A DNA stretch of 64,000 bases from Cololabis saira (taxonomy: Eukaryota; Chordata; Actinopteri; Beloniformes; Belonidae). The stretch covers positions 32,996,879 to 33,060,878 of the forward strand of contig NC_084596.1 of the NCBI RefSeq assembly GCF_033807715.1, given 5' to 3'. The notes beneath the pieces are model-generated. The model was not told the origin of the DNA. It was given only the letters and a program-made list of their open reading frames with translations, and made no database searches. This document shows positions 150-64,000 of this stretch, piece after piece. Every line of letters begins with the position of its first letter. Positions within the stretch are counted from its first letter, which is position 1. The translations under genes and the position numbers were made by a program.

Positions 150-650
150 AGAAATGGAGCAGGAGATTGATGGGTAGATCGGCTCAGTATTGCAGAGTGC
201 ATCAGTCTATTGTGAAGAGGGAGTTGAGGCAAAAAGGCAAGGCTCTCAGTTTACTGCTCAATCGATGTTGCTACCTTCGCCTATGGTCACAAGCTGTTAT
301 CTGTGGAAAGTGGCCAAAAGAACAAGACCCCGGATACAAGCAGCTGAAGTTAGCTTCTTGGGACTCTCCCTTCTTGGGACTCTTCCTTTGGGGGGGGTTC
401 AGTCATCAGGGAGAGGAACCAGTTGAGTCGGTGTGGCCATCTCTTGCCTTTCTTGGGACGTGTCTCTGGTAATCCAACCAAGAGGAGGCCTGAGACAGAT
501 CCAGGGCACGCTGGAGAGATATCTCTCAGCTAGCAGGGAAAGTCCTCAGTATTACCCCTGAAGAGCAGGAAGGGGAGGCTGGAGAAGAAAGAGAAGTCAG
601 GCAGCTTTGCTATGAATTCAGATAAATGGAGGTTAACGATTGGATGGATC
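150..650 (+). mobile_element. Decayed 3' end of a non-LTR retrotransposon (LINE) in a cdc7 intron
   Basis: Translated pieces such as VKRELRQKGKALS, RTRPRIQAAE and a stretch around TRRP/RARWRDISQLAG resemble the C-terminal tail of reverse transcriptases in the common fish LINE family that ends in GGATG-type repeats. The reading frame is broken by a stop near 470 and by frame changes, and the copy ends near GGATGGATC at about 645. It is non-coding filler in the cdc7 intron before the exon at 828. A related fragment, covering the RT core rather than the tail, lies at 34162-34680. The family name is not assigned from sequence alone. Confidence 0.6.
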
Positions 651-827: not shown

Positions 828-5956
<5,129 letters not shown>

Positions 5957-6943: not shown

Positions 6944-9900
6944 TTATGGATCGTCTTTCACCTCGGTGAGCTCCTCTATCCGCACCAAGACGCTCTCAAT
7001 CATGTCGAAAGTGTGCAGCGCCGAGTGCAGAGCCTGAAAGGAAGCCATTAAGATTCAGCCAGCTCATCACGGCGCTCCCGTCTGACACAATCGTGCCATT
7101 TGTTTCTCATTTAAATACGAAGCGGTAACTGACCTGAATCTGGGACTCTGATGTCATGTTTGGCAGCTTCTCGTCACCGACGGTTACAGACAGCACTGAC
7201 TCGTCTGGAGGACAGAACATGCACGCACGCTGTCAGGAAAATCACTTACTAGCACGGCATCTTCTGCCTACAGCCATCGAGAGAAACAGATAAAGAATGA
7301 AGTGTTGATCTGACCTTGACCTTTGACCTTGCTCCTCTTGCTCTGCAGGGTGTTCTGCAGCTCTCTCTCATAGTGAGCTCTCGACATGTTCAGCCCAACA
7401 CGCAGCGGCTTCATGAATGTATCCTCTATCTTGTACAGCTCGGTCCAGATGCCCGTCTGGAAGGTGATCGTCAGAAGAAAAACATCAGCAGGTCTGTTAG
7501 TGTAGCCGAGTCCCAGCTGGAGCGAGTGAACGGAAACGCCAGTCCCCTCCTGTGTTTTCAGCAGGAGTTGCCGTTGGACTGGAGCCCGGACTCACCTGGT
7601 TGTCTGTGTCTTTGTCTCTGATCACCAGGTAACGCAGCAGGTTCAGAGCCTCCATCACTCTGTTTTTTTAAAACACGAAACAAAACCCTGAGTTAACTCT
7701 CGACACGATTGAAGGAGCACTTCAAATCTAAAGGCAGGTGGTTTTAATGACGCGGCCGATCACTTTTGAGCCAAACCTGACGACTAACATGTAACAGGAA
7801 ATGTTTAATTAAGTACTTTTATCATTCTGTTCACAACATCTGACATAATAACTCTCATCCTTACTAAATAAAGTGGATCGATATTAAGGTTATTTCTTCC
7901 CTTCCTGATATCTTTTTTTTTTTGCATGTTTGTCACACTTAAATGTTTCAGATTATCAAACAAATTAAATATTAGACAAAGATAACACAAGTAAACACAA
8001 AATGCAAACACTTTTCACACAGGGCCATGTAGGTTTGGATTTTTCTTTCCCCTTAATAATAAAAACCTTCATTTAAAAACTGTATTTTGTGTTTACTTGT
8101 GTTATCTTTGTCTTATATTTAAATTTGTTTGATGATCTGAAACATTTAAGTGCGACAAACATGCAAAAAAATAAGAAATCAGGAAGGGGGCAAACACTTT
8201 TTCACACAACTGTATAGCCTACAAGTACTAGAGTTTTCTATTAATAACAGCATCAAATATCCCCTCTGCTTTAAACTTTGACATTTGTGTAGATGTGCCA
8301 ACAAAAAGAACTACGTGAATAAGTTAATTAAAATTAGAAATGTAAATACTTCTATCTGCATTTTTCTACTCAAAGTTAAAGTAAAAACATGAATCTTGGT
8401 ATGTGGCAGCGAGCAGACTGAAGCTCAGACTTGACGCATCGTTCTCACATCACTAGTCTTTAAAGGCAGTGATTCCTGGACTGGTGAAGTGTGGGTTTAC
8501 CTGTCCAGGTACTGCAGGAGATCGGTCTCCGGGCCGTCCGGCAGGCTGAAGACGTGGCGCAGCAGAGGCAGCAGGTGGACGCCCTCGAACCAGGGGTTCC
8601 CGTTACCTGGCTGCAGATCGACACACATTTAGTTCCTCGTGAAACACCGATGTGACGGGACTGAAAGGGCCACCTCACCTGGAGGGCGACGTCGATCTGA
8701 TTTCGGATGTTTTTAATGACGTAGCCTTCCACGCCCGAGTGCTTGCTTATCCTGAGCATGAACCTGAGACGAGACGACAAGTTCCACTGAGAAGAAGAAG
8801 AAGAAGAAGAAGAAGAAGAAGAAGAAACCCACCGCTGACGACTTCAGAGGAAGAAAAGCGGCGCTTACTGGAGGAACCTGTACTTGGCTTCAGTGCTGAA
8901 CTTATCGATGCTCAGCTGGAACACCTTCAGCCCCCTAGTCCTCTGGAGACCAAAATACAAACCGTTAACAGAGTTTTGTTTCTGAGAATGAAGACTGTGA
9001 GTATTTAGGTATAAAAGCAACAGTAAATAAAGAAGGTACCAGGACTCACCAGATCATGATTGGGACATATCGTCATGACCTTCACCAAGTTCTGAAAACA
9101 GACGCTGAAATGAACAACAGTGTGTAGTTGAGAAAAACCTAACAAAGGACAGCAGATCCTGAGGTTTGCACCACTATGTGAATAACTTCACCTGAGGAAC
9201 GGTGAGGAAGGTTTTTATCTCCAGCAGACCTGCCGGCAGACTGTTGTCCTCCACCCGCACCAGGCTCTTCTCATACAGCTCCTGCAAGGTCAGACAAGCA
9301 CATCCATCAAACTCTGACCACCCATGAACCCATGCACCTTTAACACACTCCACAGAGGACTTTGTAGCCTCCTGCTCGCTCTAAAGTTTCTACTGGATCT
9401 TCTTCTGAGACGTTACTCAGCATCACGTCTTGGCAAACCTTCAACCCGCTGATCAGTCTCATGCGTCATTGTATAAATCACCATTCAGCTTTTGTAATCA
9501 TGATAGAAAGAAAACAAATCATGCAGTACGGTGGCATCAGACCATCAAAAACTATTTCCACCTGCAGGAAACTTGACGCATCCAGCAGGTGGTTACGGAG
9601 ATGAGGTTCACTCGTGGAGCTTCCTTTAGTTCACTTTGAGGTTTAAAAACACATAAAAAAACAGAATTGTTGCTTGTGATCCGGAATCAGAACCTGGCCA
9701 GAGCACAGACAGCCAACCCAGGCTTTAACCCCCCCTCCCGTTCACATGAGACTCATTACTATGCATGCCCTCAGGTGTGCAGACAAAAGATATTTCACTC
9801 AATCATTCATGCATCCCAGGCAGAGTTTGCCCCCTAAAGGCTCAGTAATCCACATTAACTCCACTATCTCTGTGTGCAAGTCCCTAGAGTTCTGGATAAC

Positions 9901-18900: not shown

Positions 18901-20140
18901 CCAGCTAATAAAATAGATGTTAATTAAATAACTTACAAATGCAACACAGATAAGTAACATTGCACTAAAATTCAATGTCAAGTAATCAGGAGAACCAATC
19001 CCCATATGTTATTATTAAAAACACTGACTGTTGATATTTTGCCCCTGAAGTATAACATTAAGTTTTATTTATATCGTCAACAGTCCCATCAAAAAGCAGT
19101 TTCATAGCACTTTACATTAAGTTTAATAAAGAGTGACTTTGTTAAACTACTCACTAAGAGATGAACCACTGCCCAAACTGCACTGACATACAGTTGATAA
19201 GGAAAAGGCAGTTGTGTTTAAATAAGCCATCTTTGGCTTCCGCTTTGATTATTATTATTTTTTTTTATACTTAATATGTATTATTATCAGTACTCGAGTT
19301 GAGGGGGGATGAGGGGGGATGGCATCCCCCCTGAAATAAAAACAGTCCAAATCCTCCCCCCTGTTAAACTGCCATCCCCCCTTTCCATCCCTTATATCCT
19401 TTCATCAATGAATGTGGTATTACTGCTATTTCAACATTTAGAGTCATCACCAGAAAAATAACTTATTTGACCATTTTCACCTGTTTCAAGTAGATTTTCA
19501 CTTGAAATAAGTAGGAAAATCTGCCAGTGGGACAAGATTTATCTTCTTATTACAAGCAAAAAAATCTTGTTCCACTGGCAGATTTTTCTAATTATTTCAA
19601 GTGAAAATCTACTTGAAACAGGTGAAAATTGTTGTTTTTTCCAGTGATGAAACTTGTTTTAAGTGTAATGAGATTTTTTTACTAAAATGAGACATTTTAA
19701 CTAGAAATAAGACAAATATTCTTGTTAAGATTTTGAGTTTTTGCAGTGATCCATTTTAATTATCCTGTGAAGGACAGAGGCATATTGATAAGTTCAGAAA
19801 ACTGTTTTTTATTTTTGTGTTTTGATGTAAGCCCAGTGGATATATTACATTATTTGTATTCAGCACAAATTATCAGTCCCCATATGATAAAATCCACCAT
19901 CCCCCTTGATTTTTTTTTACAACTCGAGTACTGATTAATATCAATAAATAACCAGGGAAACGTGTAATCTTGGGCAGCAACACTGATGTTGAAGCTTTGA
20001 ATAAAGCACATGGTGTTTTCTAAGCAGGAGTGAAGTTTGTGACACTGACACTGAAGTAAAATAAAATATAAAGACATGTTATGAGTTTTGGTTGTACTCA
20101 CGCATCTCTGCACCACATCACTGAGCTGCTCCAGAGCCAT
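6944..20140 (-). CDS. glmn: Glomulin (FKBP-associated protein, cullin-RING ligase regulator)
   Basis: Glomulin binds the RING protein RBX1 and restrains SCF-type cullin ubiquitin ligases. It is needed in vascular smooth muscle. Exons on the complement: 20102-20140, 18648-18773, 18443-18556, 18174-18282, 17806-18094, 17609-17708, 15482-15663, 15346-15399, 13004-13031 (28-nt microexon, inferred), 9192-9281, 9050-9091, 8869-8942, 8679-8763, 8501-8610, 7596-7659, 7315-7456, 7134-7204, 6944-7033. They sum to 1809 bases, about 602 aa; the human protein has 594. Recognisable segments: start MALEQLSDVVQRC, GQTCIEEGD, MGWNLLTPLIQVLL, CCTELIDFIRPFVEEA, LAHLVFVHHLA, RVEDNSLPAGLLEIKTFLT, KHSGVEGYVIKNIRNQIDV, GLNMSRAHYE and the end ALHSALHTFDMIESVLVRIE. 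The exon at 7315 has an alternative donor at 7321 that keeps frame. A non-coding first exon with donor GTATGT ends at 20350. The long introns hold many repeats. Confidence 0.93.
7880..8225. repeat. Inverted duplication of a fish DNA-transposon end
   Basis: The arm at about 7905-8018 (GCATGTTTGTCACACTTAAA, then the AGACAAAGATAACACAAG region) reappears in reverse complement at about 8080-8200 (ACTTGTGTTATCTTTGTCTT and the TTTAAGTGCGACAAACATGC region). The outer end reads CACTTTTTCACACAACTG near 8210. This is a fold-back element in the glmn intron between the exons at 7596 and 8501. No transposase is present. Confidence 0.65.
8791..8826. repeat. (GAA)12 microsatellite
   Basis: Uninterrupted GAA triplets lie in a glmn intron, about 30 bases upstream on the minus strand of the exon ending at 8763. 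On the glmn strand this is a TTC tract and may act as an extended polypyrimidine tract. Confidence 0.9.
10605..11355. mobile_element. Nested non-autonomous DNA transposons with CCCAATTCTCC-type inverted ends
   Basis: The left end GCCCAATCCCAATTCTCC at about 10618 has an inverted partner near 11330 (GGGGGAGTATTGGGACG). A second copy of the same end motif, TGTCCCAATTCTCCCC, occurs at about 10746, and GGAATTGGGACACCACT near 11260 looks like its inverted partner. This suggests one copy inserted in another. Internal sequence holds no transposase frame. It lies in the glmn intron between 9281 and 13004. The superfamily is not assigned. Confidence 0.55.
11562..12530 (-). mobile_element. Old, heavily mutated LINE fragment
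   Basis: Read on the minus strand, the sequence around 12480-12515 resembles the RT motif GxPQGSxLGP, and TTTTGCAGATGACTCCAG near 12425 resembles the xADD catalytic block. All frames are broken. The 3' end near 11562 has a terminal motif like that of other fish LINEs. Intronic in glmn. Confidence 0.5.
13004..13031 (-). CDS. glmn: Predicted 28-nt microexon of glmn
   Basis: Without this piece the neighbouring exons do not join in frame: the exon ending at 15346 leaves two bases of a codon, while the exon starting at 9281 begins in phase 0. The 28 bases here are preceded on the minus strand by CCTTCTTTACCCTCCAG, a strong acceptor, and followed by GTGATG. They contribute one base plus nine codons (R then RSRSSAEAL), giving ALELYEKSL where human glomulin has GLELLENSL. 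Phase fit and acceptor quality support it; residue similarity is only moderate. Confidence 0.55.
14505..14715 (-). mobile_element. tRNA-like SINE / short interspersed repeat
   Basis: On the minus strand: GGCGCGGTGGTGGTGAGTTA, then GCCTCACAGCTAGAAGGTCC, then a box-B-like GGTTCAATTCC, then TGAAGTTTGCATGTTC. This layout is the common fish SINE-type sequence with internal RNA polymerase III promoter boxes. It lies in the glmn intron between 13031 and 15346. Confidence 0.6.
15734..16748. mobile_element. Non-autonomous hAT-like element with 8-bp target duplication
   Basis: The octamer GGTTTATC occurs at 15726-15733 and again at 16749-16756. The enclosed 1015 bases begin CAGTGCCGCCCC and end GGGGCAGCCCCG, imperfect inverted ends of hAT type. 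No transposase frame is visible. It sits in the glmn intron between 15663 and 17609. Confidence 0.7.
19288..19933. mobile_element. hAT-like element, copy 1, carrying a nested palindromic element
   Basis: The ends are perfect inverted repeats (CAGTACTCGAGTTG at the left, its complement at the right). The flanks ATTATTAT and ATTAATAT are an 8-bp target duplication with one mismatch. The interior from about 19440 to 19750 is a large imperfect palindrome related to the free-standing element at 45415-45792. A second copy with the same nested arrangement lies at 60686-61446. It is in the first coding intron of glmn. Confidence 0.8.
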
Positions 20141-20651: not shown

Positions 20652-38877
<18,226 letters not shown>

Positions 38878-45414: not shown

Positions 45415-45792
45415 CACTGCAAAAACTCAAAATCTTAACAAGAATATTTCTTATTTCTAGTTAAAATGTCTCATTTTTAGTCAAAAAAAAATCTCATTAC
45501 ACTTAATCACTGGAAAAAAACAATTTTCACCTGTTTCAAGTAGATTTTCACTTAAAATAAGTAGAAAAATCTGCCAATGGAACAAGATTTTTTTTGCTTG
45601 TAATGGGAAGATAAATCTTGTCCCACTGGCAGATTTTTCTACTTATTTCAAGTGAAAATTGTCAAATAACAAGTTATTTTTCTGGTAATGACTCTTGTTT
45701 TAAGTGTAATTAAATTTTTTTGGACTAAAAATGAGACATTTTAACTAGAAATAAGACAAATATTCCTGGTAAGATTTAGAGTTTTTGCGGTG
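45415..45792. mobile_element. Free-standing palindromic MITE with CACTGCAAAAACTC ends
   Basis: The element starts CACTGCAAAAACTC and ends GAGTTTTTGCGGTG, flanked by TA on both sides. Its interior folds back on itself (CAGATTTTTCTACTTATTTC against GAAATAAGT-type complement). A truncated relative forms the core of the hAT elements at 19288 and 60686. Confidence 0.8.
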
Positions 45793-51539: not shown

Positions 51540-51701
51540 TGTGTTGTGTGTTCCAGGCATGGATGTATTATAAAACGGTTCCAGGCGGCAGGGGGCGCTG
51601 TTGCTACGGAAACCATATATTCTGCCGGAAATAGGACGCTACATCCGGGTTACAGGAGTTCCTCCACGGTGGAAGAGGAAGGAGAGCGATAACACGCGAA
51701 A
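51540..51701 (+). promoter_or_regulatory. rpl5 promoter and 5' UTR
   Basis: Just upstream of the rpl5 ATG is a GC-rich segment with an Ets/GABP-type core CCGGAAATAG near 51625 and a pyrimidine run TTCCTCC near 51660. The latter could be the 5'-TOP start expected for a ribosomal-protein mRNA. No TATA box in the usual place. Confidence 0.45.
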
Positions 51702-54700
51702 ATGGTGAGTATTTATCAATCTATGCACGGCCATCGCGCGCTGTCCGGGTGTATAGAGATGTGTTTTGTACCAGACGAGTGAATGCGGCTGGTGGAGGGT
51801 CGGGTGGGGCCGGATGGGTGCAGATGTTTGAAGAAGTTCTGGTCTGCAGAAGCCGCTCAGCTTCCAGCGTGGCGAGTCATGGCGGACGAAGCCGCGCTCA
51901 GCCCGAGCAGTTGCAGGCTGCTAAAGTCCCTGCGTGGCTTGCTGATTAACTGTTACCCTGCTTCGTTAGGACTTGTATAATGTGTGCTGACTCCTCTCTT
52001 TCAGGGGTTCGTGAAAGTGGTGAAAAGCAAGGCCTACTTCAAAAGATATGAAGTGAAGTTCAGGAGGAGGAGAGGTAAAGACCCGCAGCGCTGCCACGCC
52101 GAGCATCCGCTTCATGTCTGCTTATAAACCACTGACTGTTGAATGTTGTTGCATTAACAGAGGGGAAGACGGACTTCTTCGCCCGGAAGCGGCTGGTGGT
52201 GCAGGACAAGAACAAGTACAACACCCCCAAATACCGCATGATCGTCCGGTTCAGCAACAGGGACATCTGCTGTCAGGTGGGAGACTAGCAGACTGAGACA
52301 CGTGGTGTGTAACGAGCAGTGTGGGGGTAGTTACTCAAAAAAGTAATCCATTACATATTACTAGTTACTTTAAAAAAAGTAACTAGTAATATATAATCCC
52401 TTACACTACTTGGTTGCTGAAAGTAACTAGTTACATTACTTTTGGATTAGTCCGCATTATCACCTGAGCTGCACCATAACTCGATTGCCAATGAACAACA
52501 TATACAGGACAGTCTCAGAAAATTAGAATGTTTGATTTTCTGTAATGCAATTACAAAAACAAAAATGTCATACATTCTGGATTCATTACAAATCAACTGA
52601 AATATTGCAAGCCTTTTTATTATTTTAATATTGCTGATCATGGCTTACAGTTTAAGATTCCCAGAATATTCACATTTTTTGAGATAGGTTATTTGAGTTC
52701 AACTGAATGTGGGCCAGTTTTCCTGCCATTCCTTGAGGCATTGAAGTCCATAAACGATGGCACGTAGCTCAGACCTGTAGCTGCTCTGGTCCTGGGTTAT
52801 CCCAACTCTGACAATCCCAAAGTTTGACAATCCCAAAGTTTGACAGAAGTGTAACTTGGAGTCTGTGTACAGACATCACCATTAACTCTTGACACTAAAT
52901 CACAATTGTCCAGGGTGTTGAACAGTTACAAAAAAACTGAAGTAATTTCCCCCCATTTCTTCTTTAAATATGCCAGTTTCACCAGAGTTACATCCTTATA
53001 CATGTGTAGGGCGTACATCTGACATGTCATGTTTGTAAAGACATGTCATGATCCAAGTATAACACAACAGCCAGGCTACAAATTTCACATGAGTGTTCGT
53101 TGGTCATTTTCTGCTTCTTGGTGATGATACAAAAGATGCTGAGCAAAATGTAGTTGGTCCTTCATTTGCACCAGCTGATGTTTATTGTTCTTTTCAAGAC
53201 GGGGCTGAGAGAAGCAAAATGCACCAAAGCAGATGTGTCGCGTCGTTCCAGATTACGAAAACTCAAATAACCTATCTCAAAAAATTAAAAACATTCTGGG
53301 AATCTTAAACTGTAAACCATAATCAGCAATATTAAAATAATAAAAGAGTTGCAATATTTCAGTTGATTTGTAATGAATCCAGAATGTATGACATTTTTGT
53401 TTTTTTAATTGCATTACAGAATATAAAGAACTTTATCACAATATTCTAATTTTCTGAGACAGTCCTGTAGTTGGAACCTTATTACTGCAGTGCCCAGATC
53501 AGCACAAATGTGTATTCGTAAAATCCCGTAGGATCACGTAAAATCACGTTAAGTCAGACAAGTATTACGCAACGCATGAAAGGCAAGTTTGATTTTTCTT
53601 TTCTGTTCTCCTGTACATGTAGCTGAAAAGCTTAACGTAACGTAATGTTTTTTAGTCTTAGAGTAACTATAATGTGATTACCCACATTACAACTGTAACG
53701 TGGTACATTACTGCGTTACTGGTGAATGTAATCTCGTTACAGTAACACGTTGCTTTGTACCGCGTTACACCCAACACTGGTAACGAGGATCTAACCCCCG
53801 TCTCTCTCCTGCTACCCAGATCGCCTATGCCAGGATCGAGGGGGACCAGATCGTGTGTGCGTCCTACTCCCACGAGCTGCCCAAGTACGGCATCAGCGTG
53901 GGCCTCACCAACTATGCGGCCGCCTACTGCACCGGGCTGCTGCTGGCCCGCAGGGTGAGTGAGGGCCCGTGACGTCACAGACTCGCTCAAGTTTCCCCCT
54001 AGGCCCACGCGATCCTCACGTGAACCCCTTGTCTTTTGCAGCTGCTGCACAAGTTTGGCATGGACCAGGTGTACGAGGGCCAGGTGGAGGTGACGGGGGA
54101 CGAGTTCAACGTGGAGAGCGTGGACGGGCAGCCGGGCGCGTTCACCTGCTACCTGGACGCAGGTCTCGCCAGGACCACCACGGGGAACAAGGTGTTTGGA
54201 GCCTTGAAAGGGGCAGTCGACGGCGGGCTGGCCATCCCTCACAGGTCAGTGTGATGCTCTCGCTTGTGTGGGATTTTCGTACTTTTCCGTTGGGTTCTGT
54301 CCACATTAAATGGCTGTTTTAAGACGAGCTGTGGAGGAATGAGGTGAGGTATCAGGAACTTCTACAGACAGATCCCTGTTCGATTAAATACTAACAGAGG
54401 TTTTTAGAGTCTTGATTTATTTGTAGCTGTCCAAATGTTTATCCTCCCCCTGGTCATGGTGCAGTCACTATAGTGTATAAAAAAAAAATCAACAGAGTAT
54501 TGATTTTTTTCAGTTCACTGCCCTCCAGCTCAACTGAATGTGGGCCAGTTTTCCTGCCATTCCTTGAGGCATTGAAGTCCATAAACGATGTCACATAGCT
54601 CAGACCGGCAGCTGCTATGGTCCCAGGTTATCCCAACTCTGACAATCCCAAAATTTGACAGAAGTGTAACTTGGAGTCGGTGTACAGACATCACCATTAA

Positions 54701-56074
54701 CTCTTGACACTAAATCACAATTGTTCAGGGTGTTGAAACAGTTACAAAAAAACTGAAGTAATTTCCCCCCATTTCTCTTTAAATATGCCAGTTTCACCAG
54801 AGTTACATCCTTATACATGTGTAGGGTGTACATCTGACCTGGTATGATCCAAGTATAACACAACAGCCAGGCTACAAATTTCACATTACATGAGTGTTCA
54901 TTGGTCATTTTCTGCTTCTTGGTGATGATACAAAAGATGCTGAGCAAAATGTAGTTGGTCCTTCATTTGCACCAGCTGATGTTTATTGTCCTTTCAAGAC
55001 GGGGCTGAGAGAAGCAAAATGCACCAAAGCAGATGTGTCGCGTCGTTCCAGATGCTGCGTTATCTGACTCAACTTGTCCCGCCTTTTCTTTTCCCTCTCT
55101 CTCTCTGTTCTAGTCTGAAACGCTTCCCCGGTTACGACCCAGAGAGCAAAGAGTTCAACGCAGAGGTGCATCGGAAACACATCATGGGCATGAACGTGGC
55201 CGACTACATGTCCTACCTGATGGAGGAGGATGAGGACGCCTACAAGAAGCAGTTCTCTCGGTTCATCAAGAACGGAGTCGCACCAGACGCGGTACGATGT
55301 TTCACCCTCAAAAACTTGATTGATCAGGTCTCACAGCGTGTAGCTGTGTTTTCATGTATATGTGATACACGTGTATTTGTCTGTGGACCAAAAGCATCCG
55401 TTTGTGTTGGGAAACCAGAATCCATACTCTTGATCGGCTGATCAGGAGTCCTGGTTGTTGTAGACAAATCACATTAGTGATCATTTAAATGCTTCTTATG
55501 ATGATAAAACTGTGCTGAGCAAAATGTAGTTGGTCCTTCATTTGCACCAGCTGATGTTTACTGTTTTTCAAGACGGGACTGAAAGAAGCAAAACAAGCAT
55601 TCTTGTCTTAAGTGAAATCCTCAACATTGGCGCTTTTAACATGTCATTTCTGTTTCCAGGTAGAAGAAATGTACAAAAAAGCACACGCCTCCATCAGAGC
55701 GAACCCTGTTCACGAGAAGAAGCCAAAGAAAGACGTCAAGAAGAAGAGGTGGGCGTCTAATTTATATATACAATATAGGCTTTTTATTTTAAGTGCTGGG
55801 GCCACATCGGTTCCTTTTTCTGCAGTGGGAGGGGGCTAAACTGCTCAGTTGATGGGAAATTCCTGCTGACATGTTTAATAGCTTCCAGTAAAACTCCTGT
55901 CCTCAGCGGACCAGCGTTTTTCTCGTCTGATGTGCTGAATGTTAATGGATTTGCCGTTTTTCTCCCGACAGGTGGAACCGCGCCAAGTTATCTTTGCAAC
56001 AGAGGAAGGACCGCGTCGCCCAGAAGAAGGCCAGCTACTTACGAGCACAAGAACAAGAGGCAGACGAGGGTTAG
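51702..56074 (+). CDS. rpl5: Ribosomal protein L5 (uL18, large subunit, 5S rRNA binding)
   Basis: RPL5 binds 5S rRNA with RPL11, joins the 60S subunit, and in stress binds MDM2 to activate p53. Exons: 51702-51704 (ATG only), 52005-52074, 52161-52276, 53820-53954, 54042-54244, 55114-55291, 55660-55748, 55972-56074. They sum to 897 bases, 298 aa; the human protein has 297. Conserved blocks run throughout: [119 protein letters not shown] and the basic tail. A start codon alone in the first exon is typical of this gene. Introns 3, 5 and 6 contain SNORD21-type genes. Poly(A) signal AATAAA at 56127-56132. Confidence 0.98.
52703..52840 (+). ncRNA. Possible H/ACA snoRNA (SNORA66-like), transposon-borne copy
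   Basis: A 5' hairpin can be drawn with lower stem TGGGC/GTCCA and upper stem TGCC/GGCA around an internal loop, followed by an H-box-like AAACGA. A second stem (CAGACC with GGTCCTG) and ACA triplets follow. The 3' boundary is blurred by a 17-base tandem duplication around CAATCCCAAAGTTTGA. Human RPL5 hosts SNORA66, which makes the idea plausible, but the 3' hairpin lower stem is weak. Confidence 0.3.
53113..53215 (+). ncRNA. snord21: Box C/D snoRNA, SNORD21-type, transposon-borne copy in rpl5 intron 3
   Basis: Terminal stem GCTTCT (53113-53118) with AGAAGC (53210-53215), box C GTGATGA, box D' CTGA, C'-like CTGATGT and box D CTGA at 53205-53208. The guide before box D, TTTTCAAGACGGG, is complementary to the 28S rRNA segment CCCGUCUUGAAA. 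Box features are intact, but the distance to the 3' splice site at 53819 is about 600 nt, far longer than usual for intronic C/D snoRNAs, so processing may be poor. Confidence 0.75.
54527..54665 (+). ncRNA. Possible H/ACA snoRNA (SNORA66-like) in rpl5 intron 5
   Basis: This is the intron 5 counterpart of 52703-52840. The 5' hairpin (TGGGC/GTCCA and TGCC/GGCA) and the H-box-like AAACGA are conserved, and CAGACC/GGTCC form a second stem. GTCA and TGAC could close the 3' hairpin, with ACA following in TTTGACAGAA. An H/ACA gene sharing an intron with a C/D gene would be unusual, so this stays tentative. Confidence 0.4.
54914..55015 (+). ncRNA. snord21: Box C/D snoRNA, SNORD21-type, rpl5 intron 5
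   Basis: Terminal stem GCTTCT (54914-54919) with AGAAGC (55010-55015). Box C GTGATGA at 54922-54928, D' CTGA, C'-like CTGATGT and box D CTGA at 55005-55008. The guide TTTCAAGACGGG pairs with 28S rRNA CCCGUCUUGAAA. Counting five bases up from box D places the 2'-O-methyl mark on the G of CCCG, in agreement with the known U21 (SNORD21) target region. The 3' end is 98 nt from the end of the intron, normal for exonucleolytic processing of a spliced intron. Confidence 0.88.
55491..55589 (+). ncRNA. snord21: Box C/D snoRNA, SNORD21-type, rpl5 intron 6
   Basis: Terminal stem GCTTCT (55491-55496) with AGAAGC (55584-55589). Box C ATGATGA at 55498-55504, D' CTGA at 55515-55518, C'-like CTGATGT from 55551 and box D CTGA at 55579-55582. 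The guide TTTTTCAAGACGGG is the same as in the other copies. The 3' end lies 70 nt before the splice acceptor, the classic spacing. Similarity to the other copies is limited to the snoRNA itself, so this is an older duplicate. Confidence 0.9.
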
Positions 56075-58245
56075 GAGTGTGGTGCAGCGGCGTCGCGCTG
56101 CAAGCATGCAACACACATCACAGACTAATAAATTTATTACAAATGCAAACTTGTGCCTCTCTCTTATTGAGTTGAATGACTGAGAAATAAATTGGGATTT
56201 TTGTCTGCTTGTGTTTTGAATTACAGCCACAACTATAATTCTTATGTAGTCTTTAATCCTTCATTTACATTTTAAATCTGACAGTTCATAAAAGATAACC
56301 AGTTAAAAGTAAGTGGTATGTCATTTGATTGTGCAAAATCATGCTGGTTTCTTCAATTAAGTAAACATTTCAATCATTTTCAAAACAGCAGCACTGATCA
56401 CAAGCGTGATAGATCTGTCTACACGTACGGTTTTGTTTACAGCATGTCAAGTTGTCAACTTCATTTCAGCAGCTGGAAGGAATCATGGGGGAAAAAATAA
56501 AACATAAGTCATGAGTTATTACATCCTAACAGTTGTTTGAAAAATAACCAGCATCATTTGTGGCACTGTGATCAAAGTAAAAAAAGAGTTACAGACACCA
56601 ACGGTTGAAACATTCACGAAACACGTAACAGTTTGTTTTTGTCAACGATAAGTGCCCAGCGTGGTGATGAACATGGATTCACAGTACGACTTCAGCGGAA
56701 TATGGATTCACCTCCGAGCAATTACCTGCTCCAGTTAATTTTACAGACTGATGAAGAGCTGTTGTCCATAAGACTTGAAAGGTGTCTAGATATTTGATGA
56801 GGAACGATGGCAGGCGTGTGACCAAACTGTTACGCTACATTCCTGTTTCACATCACCAAACTTGTTGGAGTAAGAGTCTATGAAAGCACAATCAGGCAGC
56901 ATTAGTTCAAGTATCTCCTGAACGTTGTGTAGATTTTGTCTGACTTCTGCAAACTCCTGGACCGCAGTTACATTTTCCTCCTTTCCAAAACTGCACATCT
57001 TTCCTTCACCTCATGAATATTGATTTAAGATAATTATCTTGTTTTTGACGGTATGTTGATTCGCTTCATGGTTTGAATGTTTTGTTAAACTCTTTCTTGG
57101 CAAAGTTTTTATTGAATGTTTCATTATTCTGAACTAGTCTCATCTATTTGTCCTGTTGATCAATACTACAGCACTACTACTGACAAGCATAGCTGTTATG
57201 GGAAGCAAATGTCCTTTTTTGCACCAGCGTCTGTGCCCACTGTCGTTTAAAGAAAGAAAAAAAATAGAGACAATAGTGCAGTTGGTTTTGGTCCACTCAA
57301 TGGATTTGTTAGAACGATACCTGTTAAGGTGCAGCTCAACATGTTTGTTTTTTCCCCATTCTTCATAGGAGCCTGAACATAATTAGACATGGCGTATTCA
57401 TTTACACTTAAAGTTGGAACTTGGTCACATTTGATACCTGATTTGTCTGATTGGAATAAAGTAAATGATAACCTTCTGCAGCGCATGTCAACATGACAGC
57501 AGCAGAAGCAGCCGCGTCTGCAGAGTCCACACTAGTGCATTTTCATTTCAAACACCTGGCAGTCACGCTACTCTGGGCACTTTGACCCTGAACGCGGAAA
57601 AATGTTTGATCTGCGGATCCCGGTGCGGTTTGTAAACTGGGCCTTCACAAATCCTGACCCGGTCACATCACGAGCCGATTCACATCATGATTGTTCTGGC
57701 TCACTGGACATCCTTCCCAGACTTACTGAACTTATACCATGTGACCACCATCAGATGATAACACAGACATGCCTCAATGACGGCATAAACCGAGCAGGAA
57801 CTGCTGCTGTAATGTGGTCAGAGTCTGCACTCGGCTGTGTAATGTGCATTACTGATGGTGTAATGTGGATGAAGGTCAGTTTTGTTTCTAAAAAAGGTGT
57901 TCTTGAAGGATTACGGACTAGCGTGGAGTTATTTAGACGGACAGCAAAACGTTGTGTGTGGTTTCCTGATGTCTGGTGAACGATGTAATACAGCACAATG
58001 TGTTTGAGTGATTAGTTTAACATCTGCCCGCTTGGCAACATGCAATCATTAGGTTAGTCTTATGAAAGTAGTCACATCTTCTAAAATTGTTAAAGAGGAG
58101 GTAGGTCCACCACTCTGACCTTTCGTAAATGTTAGAAGTTGATAAAAATGACTTCATTGAATATACTTCTCATAAATCACAGCATCTTTCCCACTCAGCT
58201 CTGCTTGAACTGACTGGCGACCCCAGAAAGGAAACCCTCTGCTTG
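56075..58245. other. rpl5 / dipk1a convergent intergenic region
   Basis: After the rpl5 poly(A) signal at 56127 there is about 2.1 kb without a recognised exon or clear repeat. The part close to 58245 is expected to be the dipk1a 3' UTR on the minus strand. Short ORFs here have no recognisable similarity. Confidence 0.5.

Positions 58246-64000
<5,755 letters not shown>

Follow-up and report, generated by a model that had tools for sequence, protein, structure and literature searches.

The window, by which we mean the whole 64,000-nucleotide stretch of Cololabis saira DNA that was analysed, contains rpl5 on the forward strand. The product of this gene matched the Pfam family Ribosomal_L5e (E 4.7e-86) and the L5 chains in the PDB (best E 1.6e-178), and the last base of its stop codon was read at 56074. 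The gene, its third intron and three snoRNA matches were placed as follows:

51702..56074 (+): rpl5 (uL18), 8 coding exons, from a 298-aa translation and GT-AG introns
51702-51704, 52005-52074, 52161-52276, 53820-53954 (+): rpl5 exons 1-4, on the same basis
54042-54244, 55114-55291, 55660-55748, 55972-56074 (+): rpl5 exons 5-8, on the same basis
52277..53819 (+): rpl5 intron 3, 1543 nt
53116..53215 (+): SNORD21-type box C/D snoRNA in intron 3, the copied copy; RF00068 53.2 bits, E 3.2e-8
54917..55015 (+): SNORD21-type snoRNA in intron 5; RF00068 54.4 bits; 98 nt to the 3′ splice site
55494..55589, in region 55490-55593 (+): SNORD21-type snoRNA in intron 6; RF00068 57.8 bits, E 2.4e-9

A FAM69/PIP49 kinase-domain exon (58249-58950, reverse strand) lies directly downstream of rpl5, a neighbourhood that we take to be known from other vertebrates too. 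Elsewhere in the 64-kb window, an RVT_1 (reverse transcriptase) open frame (2554-3864) and a UnaL2-type LINE tail (29449-29502) were present, both on the reverse strand.

All three snoRNA matches scored below the RF00068 gathering score of 63, and at the gathering threshold none was listed. The label 'SNORD21-type' therefore rests on these sub-threshold scores together with the host gene, which is the same as that of chicken U21; the available part of PMC2653536 assigns the chicken U21 gene in RPL5 to 28S G1253. Earlier inspection of the letters had described the intron 3 copy as an intact-looking box C/D guide, and this description proved accurate: the C, D′ and D boxes were retained (TGATGA at 53122, CTGA at 53139 and CTGA at 53205), as were the guide TTTTCAAGACGGGG upstream of D and, as judged by reading, the terminal stem GCTTCT/AGAAGC. 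Compared with the intron 5 snoRNA, it carries one substitution and one extra base near position 53191. In vertebrates, the optimum for processing of an intronic C/D snoRNA lies ∼70–80 nt from the 3′ splice site. As the intron 3 copy is located 604 nt from its 3′ splice site, versus 98 and 70 nt for the copies in introns 5 and 6, its position leads us to expect that, if the terminal stem is not enough by itself, the snoRNA is processed poorly or not at all. The intron 6 copy diverged by 9–10% from the other two, so that two or more duplications of SNORD21 inside rpl5 are probable.

Intron 3 is largely occupied by nested repeats, and its parts and the source of the innermost one were assigned as follows:

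52309..52316: 8-bp target-site duplication GTAACGAG, left copy, from the sequence
52317..52502 (+): left part of a hAT-like non-autonomous element, with the CAGTGTGGGG end
52503..52656 (+): TA and short arm A of a palindromic MITE, with a 13-nt gap shared by the short arm of many family copies
52657..52699 (−): extra inverted MITE loop, rc(L), forming the last 43 bp of the left arm
52700..53253 (+): cargo, a ∼554-bp copy of the rpl5 intron 5 segment, by alignment
53254..53303 (+): MITE loop L with the last A/L junction bases, normal orientation, ATAACC variant
53304..53469 (+): MITE arm A′ and TA
53470..53779 (+): right part of the hAT-like element, with the CCCAACACTG end; genome search, 40 of 417 candidates scored
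53780..53787: 8-bp target-site duplication GTAACGAG, right copy, from the sequence
54530..55053 (+): source segment in rpl5 intron 5, ∼524 nt, by alignment

The whole hAT-like element spans 52317-53779 and has termini CAGTGTGGGG and CAGTGTTGGG of the CAG type. On the basis of the 8-bp duplication and these ends we take it to be a putative member of the hAT superfamily. Without this element and one 8-bp duplication, intron 3 measures 72 nt. Nested inside the element is the MITE (52503-53469), which belongs to a family of TA-flanked palindromes that are normally ∼365 bp long and consist of a short arm A, a single loop L of ∼46–50 nt and an arm A′. A TA duplication, inverted repeats and a high copy number mark the family as putatively Tc1/mariner-like. 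Its loop motif was found at 7,376 exact places genome-wide (3,758 + 3,618), with no place for the reversed control. Copies were compared in two alignments. The first held 26 rows, 25 of them distinct (L005 equals L019), with L004 and some others having degraded arms or ends; the second held 33 full-length rows, 32 of them distinct, and omitted the partial rows L004, L030 and L035 and the half elements L031 and L039. The 33 rows diverged on average by 3.5% from their consensus, from which the rpl5 MITE differed at 3 of 154 sites in A and 7 of 213 sites in L-A′. Exact arm patterns had no match in viral contigs or prokaryote genomes, and neither of the terminal 17-mers was found in the literature.

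The same nest of MITE in hAT-like element recurs throughout the genome. With up to three mismatches allowed, a 23-base pattern that spans the boundary between the left hAT part and the MITE matched 297 places, rpl5 included (147 + 150), while the reversed control matched 1 + 0. Since the junction is common to 297 places, it was the nested pair and not the MITE alone that landed in rpl5; this indicates that the nest predates the rpl5 insertion and moves as a hAT element. Composites were then delimited by pairing the 39 other scored copies from the right-part search with 100 of these junction places. In 10 other paired composites the MITE spanned 297, 318, 371, 371, 372, 372, 372, 373, 374 and 376 bp, and two further composites (C5:6454 and C6:3789), paired with places of the left-part query described next, gave ∼350–370 bp by hand; these figures cover 10 + 2 of the 39 other scored composites, with the other 27 outside. 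The MITE in rpl5 spans 967 bp, as compared with 297–376 bp in the 10 paired composites. When the hAT left part plus the left arm was used as query (40 places scored of 2,729 candidates), the match stopped at the end of A in 37 of 39 other scored composites (query position 341 in 35 and 337 in 2). The remaining two (C3:50943822 and C6:37893778) carried an inverted loop followed directly by A′, in the order A-rc(L)-A′. These two are natural spacer inversions, and loop flipping thus occurs in the MITE family.

Two copies of a CAGTACTCGAGTT...AACTCGAGTACTG element, at 19287-19933 and 60685-61446, have the same palindromic sequence nested in them, which stands alone at 45514-45792; the pair is perhaps another composite moved as a unit.

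The central part of the rpl5 MITE is host DNA. As the sequence-only reading had proposed, a segment of about 550 bases of intron 5 with a SNORD21-type gene recurs in intron 3: the two segments were 96.7% identical, with 17 substitutions over 521 aligned sites and six gap events, and the gene was recovered by RF00068. The inverted repeats of about 200 bases described around it were likewise recovered, as the arms 52503-52699 and 53260-53469 aligned with 13 substitutions over 196 sites and three gaps. The proposed layout was thereby confirmed. On the left, the homology starts right after ...TTATTTGAGTT (52699); on the right, the last homologous base is 53253, after GTTCCAGAT, and six bases (TACGAA) precede the arm pairing from 53260. 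About 1–3 bases, imperfectly matched, are shared between cargo and junction. A possible H/ACA gene that had also been suggested for this segment was rejected: an Rfam search of 51600-56200 gave no H/ACA family match at E 1 or better, and folding z-scores for three stretches of the 5′ part of cargo and source (two from the copy, one from the source) were near zero (−0.02, −0.10 and −0.26).

The donor was likely intron 5, because the copy there resides in an ordinary intron while the copy in intron 3 interrupts a repeat. The donor segment is still present, 1.8 kb away in the same gene and in identical orientation. A nearby template that was copied, a donor that was kept and little homology at the junctions are the features of a templated insertion. 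Retroposition of the snoRNA was rejected: neither an A-rich tail nor a target duplication was read at 52699/52700 or 53253/53254, and, unlike a retroposed snoRNA, the cargo includes >400 nt of flanking intron sequence. Divergence was uneven along the cargo, with 8 of the first 113 aligned sites changed versus 9 of the remaining 408 (p 0.016); the difference between the snoRNA (1/99) and the rest of the cargo (16/422) was not significant (p 0.22). Dating by arm divergence (13/196 versus 17/521 for the cargo, p 0.058) was dropped because normal arms differ already, and no reliable dating of arms and cargo is possible. Small repeats were seen in the cargo at 52814-52845 and 53020-53055, ATCCCAAAGTTTGACA and ACATGTCATG each occurring twice, while the intron 5 counterpart has one unit or none; slippage in or after copying, or loss from intron 5, may perhaps account for them.

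Host DNA that is enclosed by intact terminal repeats, themselves bordered by target duplications, is what would be expected if the element had acquired the rpl5 segment by transduplication and had moved, or could move, with it. To what extent this applies was judged from the distribution of the cargo. As a query against the assembly of its own species (1.146 Gb), the cargo matched introns 3, 5 and 6 of rpl5, three places in total, and this genome-wide query, with two first-look candidates that were both scored, gave no match outside the gene. The exact snoRNA pattern had no match in viral contigs, and the MITE with cargo had none among phages or plasmids. The genome search for arm copies enclosing the snoRNA segment that had been recommended thus revealed an abundant family in which, among the matches, the only cargo-bearing copy was that in rpl5. 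Moreover, donor and recipient belong to the same gene, share their orientation and are separated by 1.8 kb, and the 10 paired composites are without cargo. Transduplication is therefore improbable. Of the earlier idea of transposon capture, the host segment inside a fold-back element stands, but capture by the element is not supported, as the 10 paired composites elsewhere are without the cargo; the suggestion that such an element could spread snoRNA genes finds no support in the same distribution. Host DNA between inverted repeats should not be equated with transposon capture until cargo-bearing copies are shown to move.

The arrangement of the MITE parts around the cargo was more informative. 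The rpl5 MITE reads A, rc(L), cargo, L, A′, versus A-L-A′ in normal copies, and none of the other copies inspected showed a doubled loop. The 13-nt gap of the rpl5 left arm marks the short arm of 17 of the 26 rows in the first alignment, as judged by reading, the others being gapped differently or degraded, and it was present in none of the 26 aligned A′ arms. A genome-wide pattern for exact inverted loop pairs with an apex of up to 30 nt, built from the common loop variant with no mismatch allowed and thus bound to miss diverged pairs, matched 0 places. A diagnostic A-rc(L) pattern (23 places) was discarded as non-specific: the 7 of 23 that were fetched were reverse-orientation MITEs, six full length and one truncated.

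These data bear on the idea that the extra loop is ancestral, the rpl5 copy being derived from a longer Tc1-like parent with ∼210-bp repeats, A-rc(L)...L-A′, in which gap repair exchanged the interior. Terminal repeats of ∼200 bp do occur in Tc1-like elements, and C3:50943822 and C6:37893778 carry A-rc(L) on the left. Both of these composites, however, run straight into A′, so that their loop is inverted and not doubled; the rpl5 left arm has the short-arm gap that is absent from the 26 A′ rows; and the search for exact loop pairs was negative. Furthermore, 112 loop occurrences, from loci that in part overlap, included a single case, L056, in which a minus loop is followed by a plus loop at a distance of up to 2.5 kb; the minus loop there is part of a complete separate element. 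Although the search for MITE relatives with a long interior was non-exhaustive, we consider such a parent quite improbable.

Both loop copies in rpl5 read ATAACC in place of the ATATCC of the family. With the 25-base loop motif, ATAACC was found at 16 exact places versus 7,376 for ATATCC genome-wide; one of the 16 is the rpl5 right loop, and the left loop deviates in the last bases of the motif. The variant occurred in 0 of the 33 full-length rows and 0 of 37 rows with a readable loop. Since this rare variant is shared, one rpl5 loop was most likely copied from the other. It may belong to the parent lineage and need not have arisen at the rpl5 copy, as another of the 16 places (C17:39392422) is in a composite, 164 bp from the junction. 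The two loop copies differed at 4 of 42 sites, clustered, plus a gap, versus 17 of 521 for the cargo (Fisher p 0.063). This loop divergence fits one simultaneous event poorly; hypothetically, a change of several bases that affected the right loop afterwards would account for it.

Two other explanations were weighed. One is ordinary intragenic duplication of the snoRNA, with a landing at the apex by chance. Intragenic snoRNA duplication is common in chicken according to the available part of PMC2653536, and intron 6 of rpl5 does contain another SNORD21. Chance, however, does not explain why both insertion edges are at the stem-loop junction or why the loop is duplicated, which makes this explanation very improbable. 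An assembly error is extremely unlikely: inverted repeats and near-identical segments are difficult to assemble, but the copies differ by 17 substitutions and six gap events, and the locus lies within a 48.5-Mb contig.

Because the loop is doubled and inverted around the cargo, we favour breakage or template switching at the apex after insertion, with error-prone repair or replication acting in place at the tip of the palindrome, and not transposon-mediated spreading. We assign this reading a probability of roughly 80%. The composite of hAT-like element and nested MITE inserted into intron 3, as documented by the duplications and the shared nest. Later, the MITE hairpin would have been opened, or a nascent strand would have switched template, where stem and loop meet. 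Short arm A, paired with A′, would then have been extended from its 3′ end across the loop to give A-rc(L). A nick at the A/L junction would leave precisely this 3′ end, with the loop as template, and fill-in would give exactly A-rc(L); alternatively, a nascent strand may have crossed the palindrome by a template switch. The strand would next have shifted to intron 5, which lies 1.8 kb downstream in the same orientation and offered hardly any homology, if any; there ∼524 nt including SNORD21 would have been copied, and would finally have been rejoined to L-A′ at the same stem-loop junction. The product is A-rc(L)-cargo-L-A′, with no cargo match outside rpl5 and with the variant in both loops. 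We infer from it the order of the steps, the enzymes and the donor in intron 5; either a nick with fill-in or a replicative template switch may have been at work.

Predicted DNA folds were compatible with a junction at this position. Without the cargo and the extra loop, the rpl5 MITE folded into a stem that ended at the cargo site and bore a 46-nt loop; when the cargo alone was taken out, the fold kept a loop of 4 nt. Seven other MITE copies folded with terminal loops of 3, 19, 9, 9, 9, 3 and 3 nt. In these models the stem end of the seven copies is less sharp than in the rpl5 copy, as the loop region pairs further. According to the available part of PMC3855049, closely spaced inverted repeats give hairpin-capped breaks, attributed to cleavage at the cruciform base, which are opened by the Mre11 complex with Sae2. 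Mre11 handles loops of up to about 8 nt (PMC11724301, as far as available), so that nicking of a ∼46-nt loop by Mre11 is doubtful and template switching would be at least as likely.

A close likeness was found in the accessible part of a study of yeast break repair (PMC11724301), where foldback synthesis makes an inverted copy around a 41-nt loop before the other end is joined, and where distant segments are also inserted by templated synthesis with little homology. The local inversions in yeast differ in that they measure 2 to about 150 bp, mostly <14 bp, and arise at HO-induced breaks, whereas the rpl5 case involves the fold-back of a 365-bp MITE and would combine local and distant copying in one fossil event. 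Template switching across an imperfect inverted repeat, as described in the available part of PMC8604942, inverts the spacer and homogenises the arms; this resembles the 2 of 39 composites with a flipped loop. In rpl5, by contrast, the loop is doubled and inverted, with a 524-nt excursion to a distant template in between. The breakage of closely spaced inverted repeats (PMC3855049, same part) is also alike, but there the break is attributed to cruciform-base cleavage, while in rpl5 it would be read from the footprint. The snoRNA duplications in cis covered by the available part of PMC2653536 likewise leave related snoRNAs in different introns of one host gene, yet in rpl5 the physical mechanism is legible in the junctions.

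Pack-MULEs carry host sequence within terminal inverted repeats. So does Turmoil-1 of C. elegans, according to the available part of PMC2572040. The rpl5 case is unlike either of them in that it concerns a single gene, shows no sign of cargo mobilisation and involves a non-coding RNA instead of protein-coding sequence. Searches combining snoRNA with transduplication, MITE or inverted repeat, DNA-transposon capture or templated insertion gave no such report among the papers listed, judging by titles and the opening lines of abstracts, and the available parts of PMC3511168 and PMC3412847 contain no DNA-transposon mechanism for snoRNA mobility. As far as these searches show, the ingredients are each known, and their combination at one locus with a snoRNA cargo is new. 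The junctions give a readable path by which an intronic palindromic element would have become the break or switch point that received a nearby snoRNA. If this is true, a MITE apex next to an intronic snoRNA could give rise to a new paralogue, and fold-back MITEs number in the thousands per genome; with more than 7,000 exact loop-motif copies, insertion at the apex is a testable idea.

A sample of other MITE copies was inspected for breaks. It comprised 74 loop-motif copies in listing order from the chromosome-size contig C1 only, each with the intact loop motif that was required, and of these 44 were full length and 30 were not. With the A/L junction at position 154 and the L/A′ junction near 198, left breaks were located at 48, 56, 59, 81, 82, 88, 90, 90, 133, 142, 143, 144, 146, 150, 152, 152 and 154, and right breaks at 196, 198, 207 (three times), 213 (three times), 223, 261, 287, 325, 339 and 339; L069 had both. 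After look-alike pairs had been collapsed to one copy (L082/L091, L069/L070 and L085/L094), 7 of 15 left breaks fell at 141–154, where an even distribution would put 1.5 (binomial 3e-4), and the window 198–213 took 6 of 13 right breaks, versus 1.3 expected (9e-4); as both windows were picked after inspection of the data, these values are not tests. Several of the breaks go back to deletions in an arm or to nested insertions (L053, L059 and L067), and deletions shared within subfamilies may remain. The 0.65-kb insert of L053 was set aside as an apex case, since by reading it looks like an ordinary nested insertion. We regard the clustering near the stem-loop junctions as a lead. The broader idea, that the apex of a fold-back MITE is a recurrent fragile site that copies in neighbouring DNA and an engine of intragenic snoRNA duplication, is tentative and at present rather doubtful. 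Two half elements, L041 (C15:4084119) and L042 (C3:6376329), start near the apex, at 144 and 146, and L041 has a TA at either end, which would fit transposition of the half element on an internal end.
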